NCBI GenBank assembly: GCA_916048095.2
Contig: OU696574.1
Coordinates: 9,402,587-9,466,586 of the forward strand
Source: Sacculina carcini
Taxonomy: Eukaryota; Arthropoda; Thecostraca; Sacculinidae
Reading direction: 5' to 3'
DNA length: 64,000 nucleotides
The notes beneath the pieces are model-generated. The model was not told the DNA's origin and searched no databases. It saw only the letters and a list, made by a program, of their open reading frames with translations. Positions 8,040-51,337 of this stretch are shown one piece after another (position 1 is the stretch's first letter; each line of letters starts with the position of its first letter). The position numbers and the translations under genes were made by a program.

Positions 8040-10136
8040 ATGCCATATATTCTCAAGAAGATCAATATTGAGGAGGCGTTTGCCAAACACCTCGCCTGGA
8101 CCGGTGTTACCGAGAAGGCAGCAAGGCTATGCGTCCACTATAACGACACTTCAAAGTGGAGCATGCTTTCCAACTGGCAGAAGACCATTCGCCAGTGTCC
8201 CGCGTACTATGCGCACAATCTCAAACAATACTCGGCAAAAATGACCACCAAGAAGCCCAGCAAGGTTCTCGTCATGTGTAGCAAGCATACCACTTTGCTG
8301 CAAAACCTGGAGATCTCGCTGCGTATGTACAACAGACGTTGGCTTCTGGATTTCGTGGAGCAGCAAGGATTCATTGTTCTGCTCGACTACATGAATATCA
8401 TACTGTCGGCCAAAGAACGTCTTGACCAAGAAGAGGAGACCACTGAAGAGGAGACTCAAACTTGCTGTATGCCGATATTCTGCAGATCTAAACCAAACAC
8501 CAATAAGTCCACTCTTATTAAAAATGCACACCAGGTGTTGAAACAATGTGTGCTTTGTATCAAAGCAATAGTGGGAGATAAAGTATCCATCAATAAAATA
8601 GTCCTGAATCGGGAAAATATCCTAGTGCTGGTACGTTGCGTCGACTTTATCGTACAAGAGTCTTCGGCAACGATCATTATCGATCCAACAGCATCTACGA
8701 TCATGGGCATTTTAAAAACGTTGGCGATAAACGACCCGCATGTCCGCACTGTGCTTCAAGATTTTCGCTACAATGATCTCTACACTCGTCAAATGGGCAG
8801 ATTAAGTGATTTGGTCAATAATTTCGATGAGCCTGGGCCTCAATCGCCATATATTGAGATGCAAGATCCTGATACCAAAACTGAAACGGTCAGTGCGGAC
8901 CTGGTGCCTGCGGCGGCGGCGGCGGCCAGCTCAATTGAGGCGGCAACATGTCCCACCAAGTACTCGCTGGCCGATTTTGAGCTGATTAGCGTGATTGGAT
9001 GCGGCGGCGGCGGCAAAGTGATGATGGTGGAGCTGCGACGCACTCGGCGCGTGTACGCTATGAAGGTGATCAAGAAGGAGATACTAACCTGTGACTATCT
9101 TATCAAATCAGTAAAGATAGAAAAGAACGTCTTTCAGACAGTGTCCAACCATCCGTTCCTGGTTGGACTGCACTCGTGCTTTCAGAGTTTCAGTCGGCTG
9201 TTTTTTGTGATTGAGCTTGTGAGCGGCGGTGACCTCAGGTTTCACATGCATCGCCACGGCAAACTGCCCGAGGAGCACGTCAGGTTCTACTCGGCTGAGA
9301 TTTGCATAGCGCTCAAATTTCTACACGAGAACGGTATCATCCACCGTGACCTGAAGCCGAGAAATGTGCTGATCGACCACGAGGGCCATATCAAGCTGAC
9401 GGACTACGGCATATGCAAGGTGGGAATTCGACCGGGCGACAGGACGCTCAAAATCTGCGGCACACCCGGCTACATAGCACCGGAGATGCTGCGTGGCGAG
9501 GGTTACGACTTCAGTGTGGACTGGTGGGCGCTGGGTGTGCTCATGTACAAGATGATGACTGATGACAATCCGTTCTATATTGACTATTTTCCTGAATGTA
9601 CCGCTGATAGAATAAGTGAACTGAGACGGATGGATATTGCCATCAGGACCCTACACATTCCGCAGTCTTTGTCGGTGGAGACGCGCAACATTCTCAAGGG
9701 ATTTATCGAGATAAACCCGCTGAAGCGACTGGGATGTCAATCGGATACCGGTATCCAGGACATACTGGAACACGCGTTCTTTGAGAGCATTGACTGGCAG
9801 TTACTGGAGCAAAAACAGCTGACACCGCCGTACAAGCCGTACATCAGGACCAAACGTGACCTGGCCAACTTTCCGCATCCGTTAACCGACCTGCCGGCGT
9901 GGATGGCACCTGACAGACCAATCAATACACGGACTCAATACATCGACCAGAGCAATTTTGACGGATTCGACTATGTCAACCCGTCACTGATAGGTCACAC
10001 AGAAATATGTTATACCATCGCTATAATTATATCGGTATGTCTTATTATATCATTGAACCAAGCAGCGATGCAGCCAGTGGAGCGGTCACACCAGCCAGGA
10101 TCAGTACCTCGGCCAGGACCAGAACGTACCCGGTGA
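8040..10136 (+). CDS. Chimeric FMNL-type GBD/FH3 - atypical PKC-like kinase, copy A
   Basis: 698 residues, no introns. Residues ~8-262 resemble the FMNL/Frl formin GTPase-binding/FH3 region: EEAFAKHL, ARLCVHYNDTSKW, LLQNLEISLR, WLLDFVEQQGFIVLLDYM, and HQVLKQCVLCIKA to ILVLVRCVD. An acidic stretch (129-138) and six alanines (291-296) form linkers. Residues ~313-581 are an aPKC-type kinase: G-loop GCGGGGKV (320-327), Lys342, Glu361, HRDLKPRN (435-442), DYG (455-457) and APE (480-482). The C-tail keeps FDGFDYVNP (640-648). PB1 and C1 are absent. The activation-loop phosphosite is Lys471 and the turn-motif Thr is Ala623. Residues 656-673 are strongly hydrophobic. The start ATG fits the FMNL alignment, and the upstream in-frame extension of B and C is frameshifted here. 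Unlike B and C, residue 2 is Pro and residue 37 Thr. Active-site residues are intact, so catalysis is plausible. GTPase binding is inferred. Confidence 0.85.
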   Translation: MPYILKKINIEEAFAKHLAWTGVTEKAARLCVHYNDTSKWSMLSNWQKTIRQCPAYYAHNLKQYSAKMTTKKPSKVLVMCSKHTTLLQNLEISLRMYNRRWLLDFVEQQGFIVLLDYMNIILSAKERLDQEEETTEEETQTCCMPIFCRSKPNTNKSTLIKNAHQVLKQCVLCIKAIVGDKVSINKIVLNRENILVLVRCVDFIVQESSATIIIDPTASTIMGILKTLAINDPHVRTVLQDFRYNDLYTRQMGRLSDLVNNFDEPGPQSPYIEMQDPDTKTETVSADLVPAAAAAASSIEAATCPTKYSLADFELISVIGCGGGGKVMMVELRRTRRVYAMKVIKKEILTCDYLIKSVKIEKNVFQTVSNHPFLVGLHSCFQSFSRLFFVIELVSGGDLRFHMHRHGKLPEEHVRFYSAEICIALKFLHENGIIHRDLKPRNVLIDHEGHIKLTDYGICKVGIRPGDRTLKICGTPGYIAPEMLRGEGYDFSVDWWALGVLMYKMMTDDNPFYIDYFPECTADRISELRRMDIAIRTLHIPQSLSVETRNILKGFIEINPLKRLGCQSDTGIQDILEHAFFESIDWQLLEQKQLTPPYKPYIRTKRDLANFPHPLTDLPAWMAPDRPINTRTQYIDQSNFDGFDYVNPSLIGHTEICYTIAIIISVCLIISLNQAAMQPVERSHQPGSVPRPGPERTR

Positions 10137-10847
10137 CATCGGCCGTGTTCAACATTGACAGGTCACATCTCGATCGCTGTGTCTCTTGTCCATCTAACAT
10201 CTAACATCTAGCATCAGCGTTGTGCTTCAAGTGAAAATCAACGCAACAAATCTGACGGAAGACACGCCACATTTCTGCTTCTCTCTCTATATGTCCTACT
10301 CTCTCTATCGTTTGACGTAATCTCAAGCTGTGAAGACAGGGCGAGGAGATGAATGGTGGCAGCGACTTTTATTGCCATCTCCACTGTCCTAACATCTTTC
10401 CGAGAACAATTATGACGTCACAATAAGCTTGTGCACATTGCACAAATATAGCCGATATTGGCGACATTCATGGCGAGCATGAACGAATGTAGTGAGCTTT
10501 GAGCTTGCTAAAAAAAACACTCATTGAACCGACAATATGAAGATGTGACATTATTTGAATATGACCAATTTTGATTGAGTGAATGTATCATAAGTCAGAC
10601 TGCTCAAGATTACGTTTGGTGAAATTATGGAAGAAAGTTTGCCCACTGAAAACACAGAAAGCAGGCGACAATGAGTAGCGTGGCAGCTATGATACCCCCG
10701 CCATATGAGCGGATAATACTTTCCTCTGGGAAAGGGGGACCTGTAGCCACAGGCCAAAATAATTACATTAGCAAGTAGTGTATTTAACCTTTGTATTAGC
10801 TATTTGTAGAATGACACAATATAACTTAAAAAAGATATATTAAAACA
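10137..10847 (+). other. 3' flank of kinase copy A
   Basis: No recognised gene. It begins with a triple CATCTAA/CATCTAG repeat (10190-10213). A CRE-type palindrome TGACGTCA lies at 10413-10420. ATTAAA at 10839-10844 is a possible variant polyadenylation signal, and I see no AATAAA. A 68-codon minus frame (10551-10757) is present in all three copies but matches nothing known. On the minus strand CTTTCTGTGTTTTCAG resembles a splice acceptor. The segment is single-copy apart from the kinase-locus duplication. Confidence 0.4.
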
Positions 10848-22398: not shown

Positions 22399-23387
22399 CA
22401 CAAACGAGTTTTTCACATTTTGGTGACTTTATCCCACGGGTTTGAGGAAAACTGCTCAACAGAATTTACAGTTTTTTATATCCACAGATTGGAAATTTTG
22501 TCTTCTACAAGATGATCTATTTTTGAAATATGTAGTGTAAACATTTCAAAAGATATAACCGTTTATTCAAGACCGTGTCATTTCCACCGACAACCCGCCT
22601 TGGTCCATTTTCTGCCAGTTATTACTCGGCAGCCACTCGGTGTACACACTAAAAATTTACACCATAATGTTGAAAATTATGTTCTCTACACGATAGGTTA
22701 AATTTTAAAATTTAAAAAATAATTTTAGAAAACGTTACGCGGTGTAAAGACAAAATGAGCCCTGAAAAATGCCTTGGTCCGCCTTGGTCCATTTTCTGCC
22801 AGTTATTACTCGGCAGCCACTCGGTGTACACACTAAAAATTTACACCATAATGTTGGAAATTATGTTCTCTACACGATAAATTAAATTTTAAAATTTGAA
22901 AAATAATTTTAGAAAACGTTATAGCGGTGTAAAGACAAAATGAGCCCTGAAAAATGCCTTGGTCCGCCTTTGTCCATTTTCTGCCAGTTATTACTCGGCA
23001 GCCACTCGGTGTACACACTAAAAATTTACACCATAATGTTGGAAATTATGTTCTCTACACGATAGGTTAAATTTTAAAATTTGAAAAATAGTTTTAGAAA
23101 ACGTTATAGCGGTGTAAATACAAAATGAGCCCTGAAAAATGCGAAAATTTTGGTCAATATTCTGCATCTACTTCTATCTATCTATCGATTTGTTACGTGT
23201 TTGTGTTCTGAATTATTCCTCACGACGGGCAGGTTTAAATATGAGGCGGGTGGAGGGAAAATATTTTGTCAAAATTAATATAAAAAGATTCACATTTGGA
23301 CTTTTCTATTGAGTAAGACACTTATGACACTTAAACTATTGAGTAAGACACTAGTTTGTTAATATGTGTTGAAATGTTAAAGGTTAA
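22399..23387 (+). repeat. Repeat with three-unit ~184-bp VNTR
   Basis: Three tandem units begin at about 22598, 22782 and 22967 (CCTTGGTCC/CCTTTGTCC) and end GAGCCCTGAAAAATG. Unit number is 1 in copy A, 3 here and 2 in copy C. A GC-core segment follows at ~23220. No gene. Confidence 0.85.
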
Positions 23388-23722
23388 AGGTCTCAAGTGA
23401 CAGCTGCTACACTGGAAGAAGTCGAAGCTTATGAACACACACACAGGTATGTCCCGTGCAGCTCGCTGCCACCACAGAACCGACCCTCTCCACGCTATGA
23501 CACCACAAGGATAAACAACGTATTAGAGAGAGCCACCTCCCCAGAATGCATGACACAACACATGACTGATATCTGGTATCATTTACTGCTGGGTGGACAG
23601 GGGCTGTTGGATTATAGAATTCACCCCAAAATAATTCTCCTCCACCGGGATTCGAACCGCTGACCTCTAATCATCATAATTTTACGTATTTTACGTCTAC
23701 TCCAACAGCAAACATCATTTGC
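23388..23722 (-). mobile_element. tRNA-derived SINE-like element, copy B
   Basis: Same element as at 6966. The B-box is at 23648-23658 on the minus strand. The body differs from copy A by a GA insertion (GAGAGAGCC) and point changes. The 88-codon plus-strand frame across it is incidental. Confidence 0.6.
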
Positions 23723-24463
23723 AAGCGACCCTTGCATATTTAACTACATTGAAGAGGTGAGTCAGTTAAGCTTTCACATTGCTGCAAAGGCAGCACATCA
23801 CATTTCAACGCTAAACCTAAACTAACCTAAAATCTATGAAAAATATAGAAACGTTTTTATGGGTTTTTCTAGCGTTTTTTATAAATTAGCGTTTTTAATG
23901 TTCTTGAATCCTTACACATTTAGCCTAGACCAAAAAACTCGGCGAACCTATCACGAACTTCGAGGTCTGTGAGTACGCCCAATTTCTCCTGACATAAGCA
24001 CGTTGTCACGGGAATGTGTTTGACCCATGATACAGGAGGACGGTGTAACTCAGTTTGATCTTCACTCGGTATCGGAATGTTCATCTCAATCGATGTTGCT
24101 AAAGCTCGCCTCGAAAAGGTGGATGCTAATACACGATGTCGCCGACTGCGCTGATGAGATGGAATTGGATGAAAATTTAAAATTCGACGGATACAATGAC
24201 CTTTTCGAATGAGAATTTTTAAAAACGTACGAGTTTTTATTATGTCATTTATTTACGAGGAAACATTTAGACATATTTAGAAATAATTTCTCTCAACCGC
24301 AAGTGCCGATTAATTGTTCATCACGAGTTTTCATCAGATAATGATTTACGAGGTCACTAGTATAGTAATTGTGTTAGATGCAGTCATTTCTGAACTGGGT
24401 TTCAGCTGTGGAACATCGTTCTCACACACCGTCAGTTCAGTCTGTGTTGAAGGTGAAGACATC
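23723..24463 (+). promoter_or_regulatory. Presumed 5' flank of kinase copy B
   Basis: Conserved with copies A and C. A donor-like GAG/GTGAGT lies at 23754-23761. In this copy the frame of the kinase is open for 50 codons above the chosen ATG, back to an ATG at 24314. Copy A breaks that extension with a 1-base deletion, so I regard 24314-24463 as leader. Confidence 0.35.
24027..24212 (+). CDS. Hypothetical 61-residue upstream ORF
   Basis: Small open frame ending ENLKFDGYNDLFE, 251 bp before the kinase start. It is intact here and at 44571 with the same sequence, and broken by a stop in copy A. The peptide is mildly acidic with no signal peptide or membrane segment, and no family is recognised. 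It may be an upstream ORF of the kinase transcript, an upstream exon, or chance. Confidence 0.25.
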   Translation: MIQEDGVTQFDLHSVSECSSQSMLLKLASKRWMLIHDVADCADEMELDENLKFDGYNDLFE

Positions 24464-26560
24464 ATGCAATATATTCTCAAGAAGATCAATATTGAGGAGG
24501 CGTTTGCCAAACACCTCGCCTGGACCGGTGTTACCGAGAAGGCAGCAAGGCTATGCGTCCACTATAACGACATTTCAAAGTGTAGCATGCTTTCCAACTG
24601 GCAGAAGACCATTCGCCAATGTCCAGCGTACTATGCGCACAATCTCAAACAATACTCGGCAAAAATGACCACCAAGAAGCCCAGCAAGGTTCTCGTCATG
24701 TGTAGCAAGCATACCACTTTGCTGCAAAACCTGGAGATCTCGCTGCGTATGTACAACAGACGTTGGCTTCTGGATTTCGTGGAGCAGCAAGGATTCATTG
24801 TTCTGCTCGACTACATGAATATCATACTGTCGGCCAAAGAACGTCTTGACCAAGAAGAGGAGACCACTGAAGAGGAGACTCAAACTTGCTGTATGCCGAT
24901 ATTCTGCAGATCTAAACCAAACACCAATAAGTCCACTCTTATTAAAAATGCACACCAGGTGTTGAAACAATGTGTGCTTTGTATCAAAGCAATAGTGGGA
25001 GATAAAGTATCCATCAATAAAATAGTCCTGAATCGGGAAAATATCCTAGTGCTGGTACGTTGCGTCGACTTTATCGTACAAGAGTCTTCGGCAACGATCA
25101 TTATCGATCCAACAGCATCTACGATCATGGGCATTTTAAAAACGTTGGCGATAAACGACCCACATGTCCGCACTGTGCTTCAAGATTTTCGCTACAATGA
25201 TCTCTACACTCGTCAAATGGGCAGATTAAGTGATTTGGTCAATAATTTCGATGAGCCTGGGCCTCAATCGCCATATATTGAGATGCAAGATCCTGATACC
25301 AAAACTGAAACGGTCAGTGCGGACCTGGTGCCTGCGGCGGCGGCGGCGGCCAGCTCAATTGAGGCGGCAACATGTCCCACCAAGTACTCGCTGGCCGATT
25401 TTGAGCTGATTAGCGTGATTGGATGCGGCGGCGGCGGCAAAGTGATGATGGTGGAGCTGCGACGCACTCGGCGCGTGTACGCTATGAAGGTGATCAAGAA
25501 GGAGATACTAACCTGTGACTATCTTATCAAATCAGTAAAGATAGAAAAGAACGTCTTTCAGACAGTGTCCAACCATCCGTTCCTGGTTGGACTGCACTCG
25601 TGCTTTCAGAGTTTCAGTCGGCTGTTTTTTGTGATTGAGCTTGTGAGCGGCGGTGACCTCAGGTTTCACATGCATCGCCACGGCAAACTGCCCGAGGAGC
25701 ACGTCAGGTTCTACTCGGCTGAGATTTGCATAGCGCTCAAATTTCTACACGAGAACGGTATCATCCACCGTGACCTGAAGCCGAGAAATGTGCTGATCGA
25801 CCACGAGGGCCATATCAAGCTGACGGACTACGGCATATGCAAGGTGGGAATTCGACCGGGCGACAGGACGCTCAAAATCTGCGGCACACCCGGCTACATA
25901 GCACCGGAGATGCTGCGTGGCGAGGGTTACGACTTCAGTGTGGACTGGTGGGCGCTGGGTGTGCTCATGTACAAGATGATGACTGATAACAATCCGTTCG
26001 ATTTTGACTATTTTCCTGAATGTACCGCTGATAGAATAAGTGAACTGAGACGGATGGATATTGCCATCAGGACCCTACACATTCCGCAGTCTTTGTCGGT
26101 GGAGACGCGCAACATTCTCAAGGGATTTATCGAGATAAACCCGCTGAAGCGACTGGGATGTCAATCGGATACCGGTATCCAGGACATACTGGAACACGCG
26201 TTCTTTGAGAGCATTGACTGGCAGTTACTGGAGCAAAAACAGCTGACACCGCCGTACAAGCCGTACATCAGGACCAAACGTGACCTGGCCAACTTTCCGC
26301 ATCCGTTAACCGACCTGCCGGCGTGGATGGCACCTGACAGACCAATCAATACACGGACTCAATACATCGACCAGAGCAATTTTGACGGATTCGACTATGT
26401 CAACCCGTCACTGATAGGTCACACAGAAATATGTTATACCATCGCTATAATTATATCGGTATGTCTTATTATATCATTGAACCAAGCAGCGATGCAGCCA
26501 GTGGAGCGGTCACACCAGCCAGGATCAGTACCTCGGCCAGGACCAGAACGTACCCGGTGA
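24464..26560 (+). CDS. Chimeric FMNL-type GBD/FH3 - atypical PKC-like kinase, copy B
   Basis: 698 residues from ATG 24464, uninterrupted. Same architecture as copy A: formin-type GBD/FH3 (~8-262), poly-Ala linker, aPKC-type kinase (~313-581), aPKC C-tail with FDGFDYVNP, hydrophobic end (656-673). Catalytic Lys342, Asp437, Asn442 and Asp455 are present. It differs from A at residues 2 (Gln), 37 (Ile), 40 (Cys for the conserved FMNL-type Trp), 509, 513 and 514. It shares with A the G-loop Cys321 and activation-loop LKI (470-472). A start at 24314 would add 50 residues, including a hydrophobic segment rich in Ile and Val, but that extension is out of frame in copy A. Trp40Cys may weaken the N-terminal domain. 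Confidence 0.85.
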   Translation: MQYILKKINIEEAFAKHLAWTGVTEKAARLCVHYNDISKCSMLSNWQKTIRQCPAYYAHNLKQYSAKMTTKKPSKVLVMCSKHTTLLQNLEISLRMYNRRWLLDFVEQQGFIVLLDYMNIILSAKERLDQEEETTEEETQTCCMPIFCRSKPNTNKSTLIKNAHQVLKQCVLCIKAIVGDKVSINKIVLNRENILVLVRCVDFIVQESSATIIIDPTASTIMGILKTLAINDPHVRTVLQDFRYNDLYTRQMGRLSDLVNNFDEPGPQSPYIEMQDPDTKTETVSADLVPAAAAAASSIEAATCPTKYSLADFELISVIGCGGGGKVMMVELRRTRRVYAMKVIKKEILTCDYLIKSVKIEKNVFQTVSNHPFLVGLHSCFQSFSRLFFVIELVSGGDLRFHMHRHGKLPEEHVRFYSAEICIALKFLHENGIIHRDLKPRNVLIDHEGHIKLTDYGICKVGIRPGDRTLKICGTPGYIAPEMLRGEGYDFSVDWWALGVLMYKMMTDNNPFDFDYFPECTADRISELRRMDIAIRTLHIPQSLSVETRNILKGFIEINPLKRLGCQSDTGIQDILEHAFFESIDWQLLEQKQLTPPYKPYIRTKRDLANFPHPLTDLPAWMAPDRPINTRTQYIDQSNFDGFDYVNPSLIGHTEICYTIAIIISVCLIISLNQAAMQPVERSHQPGSVPRPGPERTR

Positions 26561-27270
26561 CATCGGCCGTGTTCAACATTGACAGGTCACATCTCGATCG
26601 CTGTGTCTCTTGTCCATCTAACATCTAACATCTAGCATCAGCGTTGTGCTTCAAGTGAAAATCAACGCAACAAATCTGACGGAAGACACGCCACATTTCT
26701 GCTTCTCTCTCTATATGTCCTACTCTCTCTATCGTTTGACGTAATCTCAAGCTGTGAAGACAGGGCGAGGAGATGAATGGTGGCAGCGACTTTTATTGCC
26801 ATCTCCACTGTCCTAACATCTTTCCGAGAACAATTATGACGTCACAATAAGCTTGTGCACATTGCACAAATATAGCCGATATTGTCGACATTCATGGCGA
26901 GCATGAACGAATGTAGTGAGCTTTGAGCTTGCTAAAAAAACACTCATTGAACCGACAATATGAAGATGTGACATTATTTGAATATGACCAATTTTGATTG
27001 AGTGAATGTATCATAAGTCAGACTGCTCAAGATTACGTTTGGTGAAATTATGGAAGAAAGTTTGCCCACTGAAAACACAGAAAGCAGGCGACAATGAGTA
27101 GCGTGGCAGCTATGATACCCCCGCCATATGAGCGGATAATACTTTCCTCTGGGAAAGGGGGACCTGTAGCCACAGGCCAAAATAATTACATTAGCAAGTA
27201 GTGTATTTAACCTTTGTATTAGCTATTTGTAGAATGACACAATATAACTTAAAAAAGATATATTAAAACA
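26561..27270 (+). other. 3' flank of kinase copy B
   Basis: Near copy of 10137-10847: CATCTAA triple repeat, CRE-type TGACGTCA at 26837-26844, ATTAAA at 27262-27267. No recognised gene. Confidence 0.4.
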
Positions 27271-27485
27271 CGTGGGACATCGCTGTCCCACGCGCGCCTA
27301 TACGAACACACCGCACAGCAAACACGCCCGAACACGACTCCTCACCTACACATCCTCACATCTCAACACGACCCCCGATCACCGCCACGCAGAGTATGGA
27401 TACGGTACGGTACGGTACGAAATTACGGTACGGTACGATTGAATTTCGGGCAAGAGTACGGTACGAAATTACGGAACGAAATTTT
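27271..27485. repeat. LTR-related hairpin fragment plus ACGGT minisatellite, copy B
   Basis: Hairpin CGTGGGACA-TCGC-TGTCCCACG at 27271-27292, a CA-rich run, then ACGGT repeats from about 27399. Same as copy A apart from single substitutions. Confidence 0.5.
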
Positions 27486-27592
27486 TTCTGTTCTGGACCT
27501 TGAAGTCAAATCCGTTAGTTTTGTATATGAACTCGTTTTACACGGTGAAATTAAACGTTATATTGTCTATAGTTGCTGCCCCCGGGACATTA

Positions 27593-28812
27593 TCTATATA
27601 TATAAAAGAGATCCTCTGTGTGTCTGTGTGTCTGTTTGTGTGTCCCACCCTCCTTGGTCCATTTTCTATGAGCTGCTAATCAGCCATGATATGGCGTACC
27701 CGCTAACAATATATACCATCACGTTGGAAATTTTCTTGTCTACACTTTAGAGTAAATTTTAAATCTTAAAAATGAAACCAAAAAAAGTTATAGCGGTGAA
27801 AAGACAAAATGAACCCTGAAAAATGCGAACATTTTGGTCAATTTTCTGAAGACTACTCTTCCTAAACCAGCAATGGTAAAACTATACAAATTATACCAAT
27901 GGGTAGAAAATTTTCTGTTCTACTCAACGAACAATAATTTATACCCAAAAATTAAATATAAAACATGTAAAATGGAAAAAATTCAATCTACATTCAAAAT
28001 ATTTTTTAAACTCCACGCGTCCGATTTTCTATACTTTTTTCTCTATTTCTCAAAAACTAATTATCACACATCTAAATAAATATTACCATCATGCTGGGAA
28101 TTTTCTTTGCTACAACACGGTGTTATTTTTTATTTTTCAAAGTGTATTAAAAAAAGTTACGGCGGTGTTAAGTGTAAATGACAAAGTCAAAAAGGCAAAA
28201 TTAGCACACAAAAACGTTAATATTTTGGTCAATATTCCGCTATCCTGTCCTGATAAGCCAGCAGTAGTACAGCTATAAAACTTATACTATTGTGTAGATA
28301 ATTTTGTGTTCTACAAGAAAAGTTATAATTTATACCCACAAATTATACAAAAAACGTGTAAAATTAGCAAAATTCTCAAATACATCCTAAATTACACTTG
28401 AACACCAGGCGACTAAAATTAATTCATTTTTCTACTATTTCTCAGTAACTATTTGTTATACATAAAAAATAAATTATACCATCGTGCTAGAAATCTTGTT
28501 TTGTACAATACGGTATAATTTGTAATTTTCCAAAGGGTATCTGAAGGAAGTTACGGCGGTGTAAAGTCAAAAGGACATATTGCCAATTTGACAGCTATTA
28601 TGCGCACTTGCGATTACACAGGAATATACACCGATTAAATTTCACTGAAGCCCAATCACAATTAAGAATGCATCATATTATCTCCAAGCATGGATGGTGT
28701 GGTTTTTTTGCGTACAGTTTAATTAATGCTACACTATACTGAATAGAAAGTCTTTATTGTCCTCAATATTTACACATCAAATGTTCCACACGACGGGCGG
28801 GTAAAATGCTAC
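27593..28812 (+). mobile_element. 1.2-kb Helentron-like repeat element
   Basis: Counterpart of 11170-12389 with the same ends (TCTATATATATAAAAGAG and GGGTAAAATGCTAC) and the same length. It was duplicated with the kinase locus, not inserted independently. Confidence 0.5.
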
Positions 28813-31166
28813 TTGGAACAAAGTAAGCTACTGAATTTTACTGTGTAATTTAATTGGTTTAATTTCAAGTTGCATACGCTTAAGTTGCATAAGGATACGG
28901 ATTGTAATATCATGCAATGCCAAGTATATGCATATGCTGTTTTAGAGGAAGCATTAATCTGGAATTATAGAGATGTTTCATTGTTTTGATAGTGTTACAC
29001 CTCTGAATTACTACACACGAAGGACGGGTGTGAATTTGAGTAGTGTTGAGGGAAAAACATCGTCAATAATTAAAACAAGAATTTACAAATTTGACTTTTT
29101 CTATTGGTCGTTTTTCATCAATTTTGTTTGTGTTTGTTTCGTGTTTGAGTTCCGAATTATTCCGCACGCCGGGCAGCTTGAAATATGAGGCGGGTTGTGG
29201 AAAAACATGTTTTCTAAATTGAAACATAAATTTCACATTTAGACTTTCATATTGGCTTGGACTTTCCTATGGGTTTGTTTTTCTTTTTCAATTTTCACTA
29301 ATTTTTTTATTAATTGAATATTAATTATATTTTATGAACTGTTCCGCACGACGGGCGAATTAAATGTATCTATAAAGAGTGGGTTTAAATGATAGCGAGG
29401 TATATGATATTTTGCTAGCAGTAAATATTCTAGCGATGAAAGTAGAATAGCTCCTAAGCAAATGATTTTGGAGAATGATGTGAACCTTTAAATATATTTT
29501 GCGATCTGATGATATATGTATTAGGAATAATACGTAGCAGAATATAGATTGCATAATATAATATCGGCTGTAATATCAAGGGCTGTAATATCGGTGTAAT
29601 CCAAAAAATAACAACTGTATGAATATGATGCATTATTGGAAGCATAATCGGGAATTATGAGAAAATATGATAATGGTGTATAATTATATCGCATTATGCA
29701 ACAAATGTGAATTTAGCTGCCTTACAGTTTGGTTCCGATACTATATTGGCGGGTTGAGAGAAAAGTATTGGTGGGCCGCGTGTGTGGGACCCCTGGGGTA
29801 GATAATATCAGTCTTCTGATTACAAATTATGATCGCATCAGTATATTTTGTGATCACAAACTAATAAGTTAAATCACCTCAGACTAGGCTGAGTGCGGTC
29901 AAGATTGGATGGTTGGGCTGGGTTGGCTAGGTTTGACTCAGGTTATATTGGGTTTTAATGATAGCGGAAAATATATAAATTTTAGCAATAAATATTATAG
30001 TGGTAAAAGTGAAATAGTACTTAAGCAAATGATATTGGGGAATGATGTTAAGTAATAAATATAGTTTGGAAACATTCTGATGAAAAGATTTCATCATCTT
30101 TCATTGTTTGTTTCGTGTTTGTGTTCTGAATTATACCACACGACGGGCAGATTTATATATCAGGCGGGTTGAGGGATAATATTTGTCAAAATAAGAACAA
30201 AAATATTCACATTTAGACTTTTCTATAAGTTAAGATATATATAGGTTACATTTTTTGGTTTTCAATTTGTATTCATTATATTCTATGGATTTTATATGAA
30301 TTTTATTGTATGAATTGTTCCGCACGACGGGCGGGTTTAAAAAAGTGTTTTTAGTTCATTTTTTCAAATGGTTCATTTAAAAAAGGTATTTTTTTATAAT
30401 AAAAATGCTCCGCGGGCAGCAACTATAGACAATAGAACGTTCAATTTACCCTGTAGAATTATTCCATACACAAAACCAATGGATTTGATATTTGGATTTG
30501 ATATTTGATAAATGGAAAATATTTCCCCTCAGTCCGTCTGACGGACTGAGGGGAAATATTTTGTCGAAATATAAATAATTAAACTTATAATTTTCAATTG
30601 ATTAATATTTTTATGAGTTTACCCTAATTCATTTTTAATTTTCTATATTTTTTTATGAATTGAATATGAATTTCATGTTATGAATTGCTCCGCACAACGG
30701 GCGGGTTTTAATGCTATATATATACATAAAGAAGAAATTATCTGTCTGTCTGTGTATGTATGCTCGAATATGAGGTGACATAATTGCGCTGGTTCATGGT
30801 TCGCTGGTTCAATGATCAGGGGCTTCAAACGCAAACGAAGCGATGGCTCATTTTTATGAAATAAAAATGTCCCGCGGGCAGCAATAAAACGTTCAATTTC
30901 ACCGTGTAGAATATATTAATATACAAAACTAATGGATTTGACTTCATGAACCAGAACGGATGGTGTTCGAGTTTTGAATTATTCCGCACGTCTGCCGGGT
31001 TTAAATATGAGGGGGGCTGAGTGAAAATATTTTGTCAAAATAAAATTAAAAATAATGAAATTTAGACTTTTTGATTGATTAAGGTTTTTATGAGTTTGCC
31101 TTATTTATTTTTAATTTGCAATATTTTTATGAATTGCTCCGCACAACGGGCGGGTTTTAATGCTAG
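28813..31166 (+). repeat. GC-core repeat mosaic downstream of kinase B
   Basis: Counterpart of 12390-14743. No gene. It includes a copy of the 47-bp palindrome at 30516-30562. Confidence 0.65.
30516..30562. repeat. 47-bp perfect palindrome, copy B
   Basis: Identical to 14093-14139: 23-base arms around a central T. Confidence 0.95.
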
Positions 31167-42418: not shown

Positions 42419-43929
42419 TGAGATGACATAATTGCGCGGGCTCAATGATATAGATCAGGGGCTTCAAACGTAAACGAAGCGATGGCTCATGTTTATGAAA
42501 TATTAATGTCCCGCGGGCAGCAACTATAGACAATAGAACGATAGAACGATAAATTTCACCGTATAGAATGAATTTATATACAAAACTAACGGATTTCACT
42601 TCAAGATCCAGAACGGATTGTGTTCGAGTTCTGAATTATTCCGCACGACGGGCGGGTTTAAATATGAGCCGGGTTAAAGGAAAATATTTTGTCAAAATAA
42701 AATTAAAATAAATACATTGAGACTTTTCAATTGATTAAGATTTTTATGAGTTTATATGTTTTCTTTTTTAATATGCAATATTTTTTTATGAATTAAATAT
42801 GAATTTCATTTTATGAATTGTTCCGCACAACGGGCGGGTTTTAATGCTAAACGGTGATGTTAAATTATAAAATGTTATGATGTTATATTATGTCAAAATA
42901 AAAATAAAAATATTCACATTTAGACTTTTCTATTGAGTAAGATATTTATGAGTTTATTTATTTATTTATGAGTCATTTTTTCTTTTTTAATTTGAATTTT
43001 TTATGAATATAAATGTTTATAAATATGACTTTCATTTTATGAATTGTTCCGCACAACGGGCGGGTTTAAATGCTAGTATATATATATCTATAATAATAAA
43101 AACGTTATTCTGTCTGTGTGTGTGTGCACAAACGAGTTTTTCACATTTTGGTGATTTTATGCCACGGGTTTGAGGAAAACTGCTCAACAGAATTTACAGT
43201 TTTTTATATCCACAGATTGGAAATTTCGTCTTCTACAAGATGATCTATTTTTCAAATATGTAGTGTTAACATTTCAAAAGATGTAACCGTTTATTCAAGA
43301 CCGTGTCATTTCCACCGACAACCCGCCTTGGTCCATTTTCTGCCAGTTATTACTCGGCAGCCACTCGGTGTACACACTAAAAATTTACACCATAATGTTG
43401 GAAATTATGTTCTCTACACGATAAATTAAATTTAAAAATTTGAAAAATAATTTTAGAAAACGTTATAGCGGTGTAAAGACAAAATGATCCCTGAAAAATG
43501 CCTTGGTCCGCCTTTGTCCATTTTCTGCCAGTTATTACTCGGCAGCCACTCGGTGTACACACTAAAAATTTACACCATAATGTTGGAAATTATGTTCTCT
43601 ACACGATAGGTTAAATTTTAAAATTTGAAAAATAGTTTTAGAAAACGTTATAGCGGTGTAAATACAAAATGAGCCCTGAAAAATGCGAAAATTTTGGTCA
43701 ATATTCTGCATCTACTTCTATCTATCTATCGATTTGTTACGTGTTTGTGTTCTGAATTATTCCTCACGACGGGCAGGTTTAAATATGAGGCGGGTGGAGG
43801 GAAAATATTTTGTCAAAATTAATATAAAAAGATTCACATTTGGACTTTTCTATTGAGTAAGACACTTATGACACTTACACTATTGAGTAAGACACTAGTT
43901 TGTTAATATGTGTTGAAATGTTAAAGGTT
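42419..43929 (+). repeat. Repeat mosaic upstream of kinase C with two-unit VNTR
   Basis: Begins GAGATGACATAATTGCGCG, equivalent to 5268/21353. It lacks about 280 bp present in copy B between TTAAATTATAAA and TATTATGTCAAAATAAA (junction near 42870-42890). Two ~184-bp VNTR units start at about 43327 and 43502. No gene. Confidence 0.65.
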
Positions 43930-44262
43930 AAAGGTCTCAAGTGACAGCTGCTACACTGGAAGAAGTCGAAGCTTATGAACACACACACAGGTATGTCCCG
44001 TGCAGCTCGCTGCCACCACAGAACCGACCCTCTCCACGCTATGACACCACAAGGACAAACAACGTATTAGAGAGAGCCACCTCCCCAGAATGCATGACAC
44101 AACACATGACTGATATCTGGTATCATTTACTGCTGGGTGGACAGGGGCTGTTGGATTATATAATTCACCCCAAAATAATTCTCCTCCACCGGGATTCGAA
44201 CCGCTGACCTCTAATCATCATAATATTACGTATTTTACGTCTACTCCAACAGCAAACATCAT
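43930..44262 (-). mobile_element. tRNA-derived SINE-like element, copy C
   Basis: Same element as at 6966 and 23388. B-box at 44192-44202 on the minus strand. Confidence 0.6.
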
Positions 44263-45007
44263 TTGCAAGCGACCCTTGCATATTTAACTACATTGAAGAG
44301 GTGAGTCAGTTAAGCTTTCACAGTGCTGCAAAGGCAGCACATCACATTACAACGCTAAACCTAAACTAACCTAAAATCTATGAAAAATATAGAAACGTTT
44401 TTATGGGTTTTTCTAGCGTTTTTTATAAATTAGCGTTTTTAATGTTCTTGAATCCTTACACATTTAGCCTAGACCAAAAAACTCGGCGAACCTATCACGA
44501 ACTTCGAGGTCTGTGAGTACGCCCAATTTCTCCTGACATAAGCACGTTGTCACGGGAATGTGTTTGACCCATGATACAGGAGGACGGTGTAACTCAGTTT
44601 GATCTTCACTCGGTATCGGAATGTTCATCTCAATCGATGTTGCTAAAGCTCGCCTCGAAAAGGTGGATGCTAATACACGATGTCGCCGACTGCGCTGATG
44701 AGATGGAATTGGATGAAAATTTAAAATTCGACGGATACAATGACCTTTTCGAATGAGAATTTATAAAAACGTACGAGTTTTTATTATGTCATTTATTTAC
44801 GAGGAAACATTTAGACATATTTAGAAATAATTTCTCTCAACCGCAAGTGCCGATTAATTGTTCATCACGAGTTTTCATCAGATAATGATTTACGAGGTCA
44901 CTAGTATAGTAATTGTGTTAGATGCAGTCATTTCTGAGCTGGGTTTCAGCTGTGGAACATCGTTCTCACACACCGTCAGTTCAGTCTGTGTTGAAGGTGA
45001 AGACATC
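44263..45007 (+). promoter_or_regulatory. Presumed 5' flank of kinase copy C
   Basis: Conserved with copies A and B. As in B, the kinase frame stays open for 50 codons upstream, to an ATG at 44858. Confidence 0.35.
44571..44756 (+). CDS. Hypothetical 61-residue upstream ORF, copy C
   Basis: Same open frame as at 24027. No recognised family. Intact in two of three copies. Confidence 0.25.
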   Translation: MIQEDGVTQFDLHSVSECSSQSMLLKLASKRWMLIHDVADCADEMELDENLKFDGYNDLFE

Positions 45008-47104
45008 ATGCAATATATTCTCAAGAAGATCAATATTGAGGAGGCGTTTGCCAAACACCTCGCCTGGACCGGTGTTACCGAGAAGGCAGCAAGGCTATGC
45101 GTCCACTATAACGACATTTCAAAGTGGAGCATGCTTTCCAACTGGCAGAAGACCATTCGCCAATGTCCAGCGTACTATGCGCACAATCTCAAACAATACT
45201 CGGCAAAAATGACCACCAAGAAGCCCAGCAAGGTTCTCGTCATGTGTAGCAAGCATACCACTTTGCTGCAAAACCTGGAGATCTCGCTGCGTATGTACAA
45301 CAGACGTTGGCTTCTGGATTTCGTGGAGCAGCAAGGATTCATTGTTCTGCTCGACTACATGAATATCATACTGTCGGCCAAAGAACGTCTTGACCAAGAA
45401 GAGGAGACCACTGAAGAGGAGACTAAAACTTGCTGTATGCCGATATTCTGCAGATCTAAACCAAACACCAATAAGTCCACTCTTATTAAAAATGCACACC
45501 AGGTGTTGAAACAATGTGTGCTTTGTATCAAAGCAATAGTGGGAGATAAAGTATCCATCAATAAAATAGTCCTGAATCGGGAAAATATCCTAGTGCTGGT
45601 ACGTTGCGTCGACTTTATCGTACAAGAGTCTTCGGCAACGATCATTATCGATCCAACAGCATCTACGATCATGGGCATTTTAAAAACGTTGGCGATAAAC
45701 GACCCACATGTCCGCACTGTGCTTCAAGATTTTCGCTACAATGATCTCTACACTCGTCAAATGGGCAGATTAAGTGATTTGGTCAATAATTTCGATGAGC
45801 CTGGGCCTCAATCGCCATATATTGAGATGCAAGATCCTGATACCAAAACTGAAACGGTCAGTGCGGACCTGGTGCCTGCGGCGGCGGCGGCGGCCAGCTC
45901 AATTGAGGCGGAAACATGTCCCACCAAGTACTCGCTGGCCGATTTTGAGCTGATTAGCGTGATTGGACGCGGCGGCGGCGGCAAAGTGATGATGGTGGAG
46001 CTGCGACGCACTCGGCGCGTGTACGCTATGAAGGTGATCAAGAAGGAGATGCTAACCTGTGACTATCTTATCAAATCAGTAAAGATAGAAAAGAACGTCT
46101 TTCAGACAGTGTCCAACCATCCGTTCCTGGTTGGACTGCACTCGTGCTTTCAGAGTTTCAGTCGGCTGTTTTTTGTGATTGAGCTTGTGAGCGGCGGTGA
46201 CCTCAGGTTTCACATGCATCGCAACGGCAAACTGCCCGAGGAGCACGTCAGGTTCTACTCGGCTGAGATTTGCATAGCGCTCAAATTTCTACACGAGAAC
46301 GGTATCATCCACCGTGACCTGAAGCCGAGAAATGTGCTGATCGACCACGAGGGCCATATCAAACTGACGGACTACGGCATATGCAAGGTGGGAATTCGAC
46401 CGGGCGACAGGACGTCCAACTTCTGTGGCACACCCGGCTACATAGCACCGGAGATGCTGCGTGGCGAGGGTTACGACTTCAGTGTGGACTGGTGGGCGCT
46501 GGGTGTGCTCATGTACAAGATGATGACTGATGACAATCCGTTCTATTTTGACTATTTTCCTGAATGTACCGCTGATAGAATAAGTGAACTGAGACGGATG
46601 GATGTTGCCATCAGGACCCTACACATTCCACAGTCTTTGTCGGTGGAGACGCGCAACATTCTCAAGGGATTTATCGAGATAAACCCGCTGAAGCGACTGG
46701 GATGTCAATCGGATACCGGTATCCAGGACATACTGGAACACGCGTTCTTTGAGAGCATTGACTGGCAGTTACTGGAGCAAAAACAGCTGACACCGCCGTA
46801 CAAGCCGTACATCAGGACCAAACGTGACCTGGCCAACTTTCCGCATCCGTTAACCGACCTGCCGGCGTGGATGGCACCTGACAGACCAATCAATACACGG
46901 ACTCAATACATCGACCAGAGCAATTTTGACGGATTCGACTATGTCAACCCGTCACTGATAGGTCACACAGAAATATGTTATACCATCGCTATAATTATAT
47001 CGGTATGTCTTATTATATCATTGAACCAAGCAGCGATGCAGCCAGTGGAGCGGTCACACCAGCCAGGATCAGTACCTCGGCCAGGACCAGAACGTACCCG
47101 GTGA
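45008..47104 (+). CDS. Chimeric FMNL-type GBD/FH3 - atypical PKC-like kinase, copy C
   Basis: 698 residues, uninterrupted, same domain order as copies A and B. This copy is closest to canonical aPKC at the positions where the copies differ: G-loop GRGGGGKV (Arg321), Asn406, activation loop TSNFCGTPGY with Phe472, and Trp40 in the formin part. aPKCs carry Thr at residue 471 as the PDK1 target. Here it is Asn, so even this copy lacks the phospho-acceptor. The turn-motif Thr is Ala623, and the hydrophobic motif keeps an acidic residue (Asp644) where aPKCs have Glu. Compared with B I count 12 amino-acid differences. The hydrophobic tail 656-673 precedes a Pro/Arg-rich end. It is the best candidate for an active kinase among the three. 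Confidence 0.87.
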   Translation: MQYILKKINIEEAFAKHLAWTGVTEKAARLCVHYNDISKWSMLSNWQKTIRQCPAYYAHNLKQYSAKMTTKKPSKVLVMCSKHTTLLQNLEISLRMYNRRWLLDFVEQQGFIVLLDYMNIILSAKERLDQEEETTEEETKTCCMPIFCRSKPNTNKSTLIKNAHQVLKQCVLCIKAIVGDKVSINKIVLNRENILVLVRCVDFIVQESSATIIIDPTASTIMGILKTLAINDPHVRTVLQDFRYNDLYTRQMGRLSDLVNNFDEPGPQSPYIEMQDPDTKTETVSADLVPAAAAAASSIEAETCPTKYSLADFELISVIGRGGGGKVMMVELRRTRRVYAMKVIKKEMLTCDYLIKSVKIEKNVFQTVSNHPFLVGLHSCFQSFSRLFFVIELVSGGDLRFHMHRNGKLPEEHVRFYSAEICIALKFLHENGIIHRDLKPRNVLIDHEGHIKLTDYGICKVGIRPGDRTSNFCGTPGYIAPEMLRGEGYDFSVDWWALGVLMYKMMTDDNPFYFDYFPECTADRISELRRMDVAIRTLHIPQSLSVETRNILKGFIEINPLKRLGCQSDTGIQDILEHAFFESIDWQLLEQKQLTPPYKPYIRTKRDLANFPHPLTDLPAWMAPDRPINTRTQYIDQSNFDGFDYVNPSLIGHTEICYTIAIIISVCLIISLNQAAMQPVERSHQPGSVPRPGPERTR

Positions 47105-47825
47105 CATCGGCCGTGTTCAACATTGACAGGTCACATCTCGATCGCTGTGTCTCTTGTCCATCTAACATCTAACATCTAGCATCAGCGTTGTGCTTCAAGT
47201 GAAAATCAACGCAACAAATCTGACGGAAGACACGCCACATTTCTGCTTCTCTCTCTATATGTCCTACTCTCTCTATCGTTTGACGTAATCTCAAGCTGTG
47301 AAGACAGGGCGAGGAGATGAATGGTGGCAGCGACTTTTATTGCCATCTCCACTGTCCTAACATCTTTCCGAGAACAATTATGACGTCACAATAAGCTTGT
47401 GCACATTGCACAAATATAGCCGATATTGTCGACATTCATGGCGAGCATGAACGAATGTAGTGCGCTTTGAGCTTGCTAAAAAAAAACACTCATTGAACCG
47501 ACAATATGAAGATGTGACATTATTTGAATATGACCAATTTTGATTGAGTGAATGTATCATAAGTCAGACTGCTCAAGATTACGTTTGGTGAAATTATGGA
47601 AGAAAGTTTGCCCACTGAAAACACAGAAAGCAGGCGACAATGAGTAGCGTGGCAGCTATGATACCCCCGCCATATGAGCGGATAATACTTTCCTCTGGGA
47701 AAGGGGGACCTGTAGCCACAGGCCAAAATAATTACATTAGCAAGTAGTGTATTTAACCTTTGTATTAGCTATTTGTAGAATGACACAATATAACTTAAAA
47801 AAGATATGGAAGGACAGATAAAAGG
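47105..47825 (+). other. 3' flank of kinase copy C
   Basis: Near copy of 10137-10847 with CRE-type TGACGTCA at 47381-47388. The end differs: ATGGAAGGACAGATAAAAGG replaces the sequence with ATTAAA and the left arm of the hairpin, so the variant polyadenylation signal seen in A and B is missing. Confidence 0.4.
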
Positions 47826-48035
47826 ACATCGCTGTCCCACGCGCGCCTATACGAACACACCGCACAGCAAACACGCCCGAACACGACTCCTCACCTACAC
47901 ATCCTCACATCTCAACACGACCCCCGATCACCGCCACGCAGAGTATGGATACGGTACGGTACGGTACGAAATTACGGTACGGTACGATTGAATTTCGGGC
48001 AAGAGTACGGCACGAAATTACGGAACGAAATTTTT
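47826..48035. repeat. LTR-related fragment (hairpin arm lost) plus ACGGT minisatellite, copy C
   Basis: Begins at GACATCGCTGTCCCACGCG, so only the right hairpin arm remains. The CA-rich run and the ACGGT repeats (from about 47949) follow as in A and B. Confidence 0.5.
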
Positions 48036-48141
48036 TCTGTTCTGGACCTTGAAGTCAAATCCGTTAGTTTTGTATATGAACTCGTTTTACACGGTGAAAT
48101 TAAACGTTATATTGTCTATAGTTGCTGCCCCCGGGACATTA

Positions 48142-49361
48142 TCTATATATATAAAAGAGATCCTCTGTGTGTCTGTGTGTCTGTTTGTGTGTCCCACCCT
48201 CCTTGGTCCATTTTCTATGAGCTGCTAATCAGCCATGATATGGCGTACCCGCTAACAATATATACCATCACGTTGGAAATTTTCTTGTCTACACTTCAGA
48301 GTAAATTTTAAATCTTAAAAATGAAACCAAAAAAAGTTATAGCGGTGAAAAGACAAAATGAACCCTGAAAAATGCGAACATTTTGGTCAATTTTCTGAAG
48401 ACTACTCTTCCTAAACCAGCAATGGTAAAACTATACAAATTATACCAATGGGTAGAAAATTTTCTGTTCTACTCAACGAACAATAATTTATACCCAAAAA
48501 TTAAATATAAAACATGTAAAATGGAAAAAATTCAATCTACATTCAAAATATTTTTTAAACTCCACGCGTCCGATTTTCTATACTTTTTTCTCTATTTCTC
48601 AAAAACTAATTATCACACATCTAAATAAATAATACCATCATGCTGGGAATTTTCTTTGCTACAACACGGTGTTATTTTTTATTTTTCAAAGTGTATTAAA
48701 AAAAGTTACGGCGGTGTGAAGTGTAAATGACAAAGTCAAAAAGGCAAAATTAGCACACAAAAACGTTAATATTTTGGTCAATATTCCGCTATCCTGTCCT
48801 GATAAGCCAGCAGTAGTACAGCTATAAAACTTATACTATTGTGTAGAGAATTTTGTGTTCTACAAGAAAAGTTATAATTTATACCCACAAATTATACAAA
48901 AAACGTGTAAAATTAGCAAAATTCTCAAATACATCCTAAATTACACTTGAACACCAGGCGACTAAAATTAATTCATTTTTCTACTATTTCTCAGTAACTA
49001 TTTGTTATACAAAAAAAATAAATTATACCATCGTGCTAGAAATCTTGTTTTGTACAATACGGTATAATTTGTAATTTTCCAAAGGGTATCTGAAGGAAGT
49101 TACGGCGGTGTAAAGTCAAAAGGACATATTGCCAATTTGACAGCTATTATGCGCACTTGCGATTACACAGGAATATACACCGATTAAATTTCACTGAAGC
49201 CCAATCACAATTAAGAATGCATCATATTATCTCCAAGCATGGATGGTGTGGTTTTTTTGCGTACAGTTTAATTAATGCTACACTATACTGAATAGAAAGT
49301 CTTTATTGTCCTCAATATTTACACATCAAATGTTCCACACGACGGGCGGGTAAAATGCTAC
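48142..49361 (+). mobile_element. 1.2-kb Helentron-like repeat element
   Basis: Counterpart of 11170-12389 and 27593-28812, the same length and ends. Confidence 0.5.
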
Positions 49362-51269
49362 TTGGAACAAAGTAAGCTACTGAATTTTACTGTGTAATTT
49401 AATTGGTTTAATTTCAAGTTGCATACGCTTAAGTTGCATAAGGATACGGATTGTAATATCATGCAATGCCAAGTATATGCATATGCTGTTTTAGAGGAAG
49501 CATTAATCTGGAATTATAGATATGTTTCATTGTTTTGATAGTGTTACACCTCTGAATTACTACACACGAAGGACGGGTGTGAATTTGAGTAGTGTTGAGG
49601 GAAAAACATCGTCAATAATTAAAACAAGAATTTACAAATTTGACTTTTTCTTTTGGTCGTTTTTCATCAATTTTGTTTGTGTTTGTTTCGTGTTTGAGTT
49701 CCGAATTATTCCGCACGCCGGGCAGCTTGAAATATGAGGCGGGTTGTGGAAAAACATGTTTTCTAAATTGAAACATAAATTTCACATTTAGACTTTCATA
49801 TTGGCTTGGACTTTCCTATGGGTTTGTTTTTCTTTTTCAATTTTCACAATTTTTTTTATTAATTGAATATTAATTATATTTTATGAACTGTTCCGCACGA
49901 CGGGCGAATTAAATGTATCTATAAAGAGTGGGTTTAAATGATAGCGAGGTATATGATATTTTGCTAGCAGTAAATATTCTAGCGATGAAAGTAGAATAGC
50001 TCCTAAGCAAATGATTTTGGAGAATGATGTGAACCTTTAAATATATTTTGCGATCTGATGATATATGTATTAGGAATAATACGTAGCAGAATATAGATTG
50101 CATAATATAATATCGGCTGTAATATCAAGGGCTGTAATATCGGTGTAATCCAAAAAATAACAACTGTATGAATATGATGCATTATTGGAAGCATAATCGG
50201 GAATTATGAGAAAATATGATAATGGTGTATAATTATATCGCATTATGCAACAAATGTGAATTTAGCTGCCTTACAGTTTGGTTCCGATACTATATTGGCG
50301 GGTTGAGAGAAAAGTATTGGTGGGCCGCGTGTGTGGGACCCCTGGGGTAGATAATATCAGTCTTCTGATTACAAATTATGATCGCATCAGTATATTTTGT
50401 GATCACAAACTAATAAGTTAAATCACCTCAGACTAGGCTGAGTGCGGTCAAGATTGGATGGTTGGGCTGGGTTGGCTAGGTTTGACTCAGGTTATATTGG
50501 GTTTTAATGATAGCGGAAAATATATAAATTTTAGCAATAAATATTATAGTGGTAAAAGTGAAATAGTACTTAAGCAAATGATATTGGGGAATGATGTTAA
50601 GTAATAAATATAGTTTGGAAACATTCTGATGAAAAGATTTCATCATCTTTCATTGTTTGTTTCGTGTTTGTGTTCTGAATTATACCACACGACGGGCAGA
50701 TTTATATATCAGGCGGGTTGAGGGATAATATTTGTCAAAATAAGAACAAAAATATTCACATTTAGACTTTTCTATAAGTTAAGATATATATAGGTTACAT
50801 TTTTTGGTTTTCAATTTGTATTCATTATATTCTATGGATTTTATATGAATTTTATTGTATGAATTGTTCCGCACGACGGGCGGGTTTAAAACAGTGTTTT
50901 TAGTTCATTTTTTCAAATGGTTCATTTAAAAAAGGTATTTTTTTATAATAAAAATGCTCCGCGGGCAGCAACTATAGACAATAGAACGTTCAATTTACCC
51001 TGTAGAATTATTCCATACACAAAACCAATGGATTTGATATTTGGATTTGATATTTGATAAATGGAAAATATTTCCCCTCAGTCCGTCTGACGGACTGAGG
51101 GGAAATATTTTGTCGAAATATAAATAATTAAACTTATAATTTTCAATTGATTAATATTTTTATGAGTTCACCCTAATTCATTTTTAATTTTCTATATTTT
51201 TTTATGAATTGAATATGAATTTCATGTTATGAATTGCTCCGCACAACGGGCGGGTTTTAATGCTATATA
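49362..51269 (+). repeat. GC-core repeat mosaic downstream of kinase C
   Basis: Counterpart of 12390-14290. No gene. It leaves the A/B pattern at 51265, where the L block begins in place of the ACATAAAGAAGAAATTATCTG module. Includes the 47-bp palindrome at 51065-51111. Confidence 0.65.
51065..51111. repeat. 47-bp perfect palindrome, copy C
   Basis: Identical to 14093-14139. Confidence 0.95.
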
Positions 51270-51300
51270 TCTATATATATAAAAGAGATCCTCTGTGTGT

Positions 51301-51337
<37 letters not shown>

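Follow-up and report, generated by a model that had tools for sequence, protein, structure and literature searches.

The accessory domains of protein kinases are normally slow to change. For atypical PKC (aPKC) a kinase-only form is known, PKM-zeta, and the autoinhibition of formins requires a DAD partner. On the formin side the closest described system is the structure of FMNL2 bound to Cdc42 (PMC4432619). According to the accessible part of that report Cdc42 contacts the GTPase-binding head (GBD) and all five armadillo repeats: E111 acts through water on Cdc42 E95, H222 and R261 form salt bridges with Cdc42, and E311 and D360 reach the Cdc42 insert helix, which is contacted by armadillo repeats 4-5. 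On the kinase side the accessible part of PMC4177888 describes hybrid and rogue kinases, in which the catalytic domain of one subfamily is combined with the accessory domains of another, and this part of the text makes no mention of a GBD, of atypical PKC or of a formin. In a literature search covering titles and the openings of abstracts, with most subscription journals outside its scope, no formin-aPKC fusion was found. We know of no other case of the layout described below, a GTPase-binding formin head on one to three polarity kinases.

The chimeric reading frame in the window

We give the detailed results for one of three copies found in the window, i.e. the whole stretch of 64,000 nucleotides that was analysed. 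All features are located on the forward strand. The earlier note had read positions 45008-47104 (copy 3) as one frame that joins an FMNL-like formin module to an aPKC kinase, and this reading held: the frame runs uninterrupted over 698 codons and contains both halves. The start codon is a predicted one; the frame is open upstream to 44858. Residues 1-258 (45008-45781) comprise, by domain and sequence matches, an FMNL-type GBD and about three armadillo repeats. They are followed by an acidic linker of 47 residues without a pseudosubstrate-like or DAD-like match (45782-45922), the atypical PKC kinase domain with its AGC C-tail (residues 306-655, 45923-46972) and a C-terminal extension with a hydrophobic segment resembling a tail anchor (46973-47101, mean KD 2.23 over 19 residues).

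Drf_GBD matched residues 9-202 with E=1e-10 (41.9 bits compared to a curated cut-off of 30.1) and Pkinase matched residues 314-581 with E=6.8e-62. For residues 1-265 both Drf_GBD and Drf_FH3 had been proposed, and only the first was recovered. Drf_FH3 (PF06367) had no match in the three window copies (E≤1), in 8 further members (E≤0.01) or in 7 relatives (E≤0.001). FH2 was absent from the window proteins in the Pfam scan, and neither PB1 nor C1 matched in the family proteins scanned (the window copies and 8 other members). Besides the GBD, the formin part of the chimera includes only about the first three armadillo repeats. When we compared the sequences to solved proteins, residues 1-266 were closest to FMNL2 (E=1.7e-8) and FMNL1 (E=5.9e-6), and residues 262-654 to PKC iota with E=1.2e-127, the next subfamily being PKC beta at 2.5e-89. 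Profiles sharpened this assignment: 17 family GBDs found FMNL1 (1.7e-13) and FMNL2 (1.4e-11) with Dia1 behind at 0.31, and 23 kinase domains found PKC iota at 7.7e-170 versus 4.9e-118 for the next. Given these matches, the landmarks that the earlier note had picked out in both halves were correct.

Copy 1 (8040-10136) and copy 2 (24464-26560) also encode 698 aa, and all three frames are intact. They differ pairwise at only 9, 16 and 19 of 2097 positions and sit within segmental duplicates that are 7.8-9.2 kb long and 98.9-99.3% identical; the duplicate that carries copy 3 (43323-51304) is 99.2% identical to 22779-30753. The activation loop reads GDRTLKICGTPG in copies 1 and 2 and GDRTSNFCGTPG in copy 3. 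Neither has the Thr phosphorylated by PDK1; the PKC iota counterpart is TSTFCGTP, the loop in which we take the PDK1 site of aPKC to lie. The kinase of copy 3 shows Asn at the PDK1-site position, Ala in place of the turn-motif Thr and the acidic hydrophobic motif FDGFDYV, and all window copies lack both the PDK1-site Thr and the turn-motif Thr-Pro. Five of the base differences specific to copy 3 crowd into 12 bases of the activation loop (46415-46426, ORF bases 1408-1419), a pattern that gene conversion or a small template switch could have produced.

Upstream of the frame we observed a 5' leader (44773-45007) that is common to diverged members at ∼71-83% identity; in most of them the homology starts at 44773-44839. 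The non-coding sequence between 11860 and 63830 holds dispersed and tandem repeats with a spacing of 341 bp and ∼460 bp in both orientations. A further repeat of ∼290 bp (86-88% identity) occurs near several family members, at 43918-44211 and in the flanks of L030, L053 and L054, and looks SINE-like. No tRNA genes were detected in the window.

The genome-wide family and its relatives

We searched the assembly from which the window was taken (G000, 264 Mb, 43 contigs). The protein query gave at least 130 matches on 15 contigs with 62 of 577 candidates scored, ranging from 100% down to ∼59% identity. The Drf_GBD query gave 135 matches from 147 candidates. The open frame around the match is 600 codons or longer for 110 of these, 1000 or longer for 45 and 2000 or longer for 11; a frame with two GBDs is counted twice. 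For comparison, the longest stop-free runs in random 200 kb sequence of three GC contents were 127, 176 and 180 codons. We fetched 49 frames. Seven of them repeat a gene already in the set, so that the sample comprises 42 distinct genes including the three of the window. The fusion itself was confirmed on this larger set, as in 40 of the 42 genes GBD and kinase are both near-full and share a single frame; the two exceptions (L014 and L016) are damaged. One further locus, L027, has two stops inside the match and no frame long enough to join the 49. Among the matches scored, an array on contig C4 (9.30-9.49 Mb) alone holds nine full-length copies and a broken one. The earlier note had concluded from the three window copies that the fusion is no assembly join. 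The conclusion stands and the chimera is real; the three copies are recent segmental duplicates, however, and prove little by themselves. The strong evidence against an artefact is the genome-wide family.

More than one near-full kinase was found in six of the 42 genes. L022, L023 and L031 have three each, L024 and L033 two each, and L021 has two and another that is cut by the end of the locus. L021 is one of the frames of 1619-1692 codons in an array on contig C15, most of which lie outside the fetched set. Two kinase matches each were also seen in the partly fetched frames L063 and L064 (1402 and 2249 codons). In the kinase tree the domains of L022, L023 and L031 cluster by their position in the chain (support 99 for the first, 99 for the second and 94 for the third), thus the triple layout predates the spread to contigs C35, C23 and C2. 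A different arrangement was observed at L061 (C32:510600-513900): the GBD is followed by repeated stubs, each consisting of the linker and the first residues of the kinase N-lobe, and then by one full kinase. The stubs are apparently partial tandem duplications held in frame. As a separate observation, Chitin_bind_4, a family tied to the arthropod cuticle, has 94 matches in the same assembly, 20 of them with similar scores within ∼93 kb (G000:C30:335968-429085). These matches mark the host as an arthropod. Neither COX1 nor an exact 18S primer site was detected, and a search for insect odorant receptors gave no match here or in any control genome.

The catalytic residues are conserved. An alignment-based count over 47 distinct kinase domains found the catalytic Lys in 46 and both the HRD Asp and the DYG Asp in all 47. 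Glu replaces the catalytic Lys in the second kinase of L031; in L008 the Arg of HRD is lost, and in L012 the Lys that follows this motif. The phosphorylation sites are more variable: by pattern, the PDK1 position is Thr in 23, Ser in 14 and another residue in 10 of the 47 domains, and the turn motif reads Thr-Pro in 19, Ala-Pro in 13, Thr-Leu in 10 and Ile-Leu in 5. The activation loop TSTFCGTP is found in members such as L063. By the Nei-Gojobori method the median pairwise dN/dS is 0.38 for the GBD (range 0.24-0.64, 120 pairs) and 0.42 for the kinase (range 0.24-1.04, 210 pairs), i.e. the family is under constraint and changes fast. Within the window clade, where there are few changes, pairwise values range from 0.14 to 1.37, and single kinase pairs elsewhere reach 1.04, so that the young copies are weakly constrained. 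We also counted raw nucleotide gaps. For the GBD 178 of 228 gaps are in phase compared to 82 of 528 in the leader, which favours frame keeping. For the kinase the same test gives no support for frame keeping (295 of 878 gaps in phase over the whole domain, 23 of 82 in the N-half and 67 of 203 in the C-tail), a result that alignment noise in the variable loops may explain.

Ordinary formin genes also appear to be present in this genome, because matches to GBD and FH2 at C9:4597229-4597937, C21:5685680-5687258 and C9:4549198-4590563 are split into pieces, as if by introns. Two intronless frames stand between these and the chimeras: L053 (687 aa, GBD, FH1 and FH2) and L054 (867 aa), both with a GBD, a proline-rich part and FH2. 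The GBD of L053 falls inside the kinase-fusion clade (support 100/100) and is 66% identical to that of L025. L053 may have kept or regained its FH2; the GBD tree, which carries a long-branch warning, fits both. The simplest history, with the direction of the exchange as we infer it, is an intronless FMNL retrocopy in which FH1-FH2 was swapped for an aPKC kinase. A canonical aPKC parent was not located in this genome, and the PB1 search of the assembly gave two matches, on C8 and C26, with no listed member less than 100 kb away from either.

The same head occurs in other combinations. L062 (C18:1618000-1620000) is a single 631-aa frame in which a GBD is joined to a Ulp1/SENP-like SUMO protease domain (Peptidase_C48 E=3.2e-15, SENP1 E=2.2e-8); its GBD is a distant one that reaches no more than 30% identity with the other rows of the tree. 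Further GBD frames of 631 aa appear among the Drf_GBD matches on C18, C22 and C9. In L057 and L058 (C9, 7.48 and 7.65 Mb) two GBDs stand in tandem ahead of a long tail rich in proline and serine, with no other Pfam match in L057, and L065 is a GBD frame without kinase or FH2. With respect to a foreign source, viral contigs were scanned with the protein and with the GBD alignment and no relative was confirmed, and a scan of genome contigs with the GBD alignment gave no prokaryotic or contaminant source.

The 3' element, the head and the linker

Another noticeable characteristic is a conserved element of ∼105 bp behind the frames, located at 47616-47721 for copy 3 and, placed from exact 18-mers at 10661 and 27084, at 10647-10752 and 27070-27175 for copies 1 and 2. 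BLAST located it behind 35 of the 42 genes, with 92-100% identity, whereas proteins of different subfamilies are only 60-70% identical. The sequence flanking the element aligns within subfamilies and not between them. Among the genes without a match, L021 and L033 have only 2 and 192 bases past the frame; behind L020, L022, L024, L025 and L032 the element is absent despite 1.1-1.8 kb of sequence. An exact 22-mer of the element is present in 36 of the 66 fetched loci, and with up to two mismatches it has 189 genomic sites compared to none for the reversed pattern. Among the 100 exact sites that were listed, a GBD on the same strand lies at most 7 kb upstream of 47, none has one on the opposite strand within 7 kb, and 53 have no listed GBD. 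One of these 53, on contig C29, lies behind an unrelated intronless frame of 267 aa (L066, part of an array). A known structured RNA was rejected: no Rfam family reached its gathering score in the window, a relaxed search with the element gave one match far below that score (E=1.4), and the predicted folds are weak (z between −0.1 and −2.2, six sequences). The element may serve intronless genes in arrays as a common 3' regulatory sequence, or it may be one end of a mobile cassette.

The second possibility leads to an alternative explanation for the family as a whole, namely that the genes are the payload of a mobile or amplifying unit in which the GBD frame and the 3' element are copied as a cassette, with selection acting on copying and not on host signalling. 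The many copies on at least 15 contigs, the tandem arrays, the repeat-rich surroundings, the strand-specific association with the GBD and the element behind L066 are all consistent with this. However, the median dN/dS near 0.4 and the kept kinase active sites fit a function in the host, by eye we noticed no transposon gene or terminal repeat in the shared unit and no poly(A) after the element, and the element is missing behind the five genes listed above. We regard a mobile unit as somewhat unlikely.

The head can be compared with FMNL2. Mapped onto the family with the numbering offset checked, FMNL2 E111, as given in the accessible part of the structure report, corresponds to an invariant E91, and linker residue K73 to an invariant R51. 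The equivalent of H222 is a variable position (K168 in the window protein) and that of R261, aligned by eye, is Thr or Met. Armadillo repeats 4-5 are absent from the chimera. As the H222 and R261 equivalents are not kept and these repeats are missing, the specificity for Cdc42 has probably been changed or lost, and some GTPase contact may be left. The same data could mean that the GBD no longer binds GTPases at all and serves as a scaffold or dimer module only. In support of this, key contacts of the FMNL2 structure, so far as described in its accessible part, are absent or variable, and the same type of GBD is duplicated in L057 and L058 and found without kinase or FH2 in L065. Against it, 83 GBD positions are invariant among 17 members, the E111 and K73 equivalents included, and we judge a pure scaffold to be unlikely.

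The linkers bear on regulation. The 35 distinct ones are 45-264 residues long, contain 17-34% Ser and Pro and are acidic in 34 cases. The earlier note had proposed that the kinase is kept inactive by its own formin part, in cis and like DID and DAD, which would make release dependent on a GTP-loaded Rho GTPase. The two parts do lie in cis, and the same region is established as taking part in formin autoinhibition. However, none of the 35 linkers has a DAD-like or pseudosubstrate-like match (the linkers only, searched with our own regular expressions, which is a weak test), armadillo repeats 4-5 are missing and the linker length varies almost sixfold, so that we consider autoinhibition in cis highly doubtful. 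The genes are intronless and multicopy, but a non-expressed retrocopy array or an assembly artefact is extremely improbable: for 110 of the 135 GBD matches the surrounding frame is 600 aa or longer, and members diverged to 60-70% identity are still open with dN/dS of 0.24-1.04 (median ∼0.4).

At the other end of the protein a hydrophobic C-terminal segment is present in 11 loci (L001-L010 and L014; mean KD 2.07-2.86 over 19 residues) and absent from L011-L013. It looks like a tail anchor.

Proposed mechanism and comparison with known systems

The reading that we consider probable is a family of host genes, intronless chimeras that would encode GTPase-targeted, PKM-like atypical PKCs acting without Par6. 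An aPKC catalytic domain would have replaced the formin FH1-FH2 behind an FMNL-type GBD and about three armadillo repeats, and the chimera would then have multiplied into dozens of predicted genes, a few of which carry two or three consecutive kinases. The GBD would act as a Rho-GTPase-responsive targeting module that brings the kinase to active GTPase at membranes. Since neither PB1 nor C1 was found, the bypass of Par6 proposed earlier is plausible. The kinase itself would be PKM-like, lacking PB1, C1 and pseudosubstrate, and controlled by location and priming phosphorylation rather than by a formin-style DID-DAD closure. We prefer a targeting head on a PKM-like kinase to autoinhibition because the linkers gave no match to a DAD or pseudosubstrate pattern and the chimera lacks repeats 4-5. 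The window subfamily would depend on anchoring, since it lacks the PDK1 and turn-motif phosphosites and has the hydrophobic tail.

A broader reading is tentative and, in our view, possible rather than probable: in this arthropod lineage the GBD may have become a targeting module for general use. It would head a superfamily of ∼100 intronless genes that evolve fast and swap the head among effectors, and many members would share the 3' element as a means of co-regulation or mobilisation. The effectors would range from aPKC kinases, one or several, and FH2 to a Ulp1/SENP-like SUMO protease, proline-rich tails and a second GBD. If true, head swapping would be a recent and ongoing shuffling of signalling domains, comparable to expanded immune or effector repertoires.

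Under the preferred reading of a GTPase-targeted kinase family, one kinase has had its whole regulatory region exchanged for a formin GTPase-binding head in dozens of predicted genes, and its catalytic domain has been multiplied within chains. The family lets one test whether recruitment by a GTPase can replace the control of aPKC through Par6, PB1 and C1, and ask what several like kinase domains in a chain do. Members that differ at the PDK1 and turn-motif sites form a natural series for the question of which priming events aPKC needs.

Compared to atypical PKC (PKC iota/zeta), the chimera has the same kinase domain, DYG motif, acidic hydrophobic motif and AGC C-tail. Unlike atypical PKC it has no PB1, C1 or pseudosubstrate-like match, carries a formin GBD instead, is intronless and has up to three kinases. 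It shares the GBD and the first armadillo repeats with the FMNL (Frl) formins, and the intronless relatives L053 and L054 of the same genome resemble FMNL further in keeping the proline-rich part and FH2. In contrast to FMNL, the chimera is without a Drf_FH3 match, armadillo repeats 4-5, FH2 and a DAD-like match, and the window copies, if translation starts at the ATG at 45008, begin with MQ or MP and thus have no N-terminal glycine for myristoylation. The chimera fits the class of hybrid and rogue kinases as set out in the accessible part of PMC4177888. Hybrid kinases are already known as a class, and it is the formin-aPKC chimera family that would be new.
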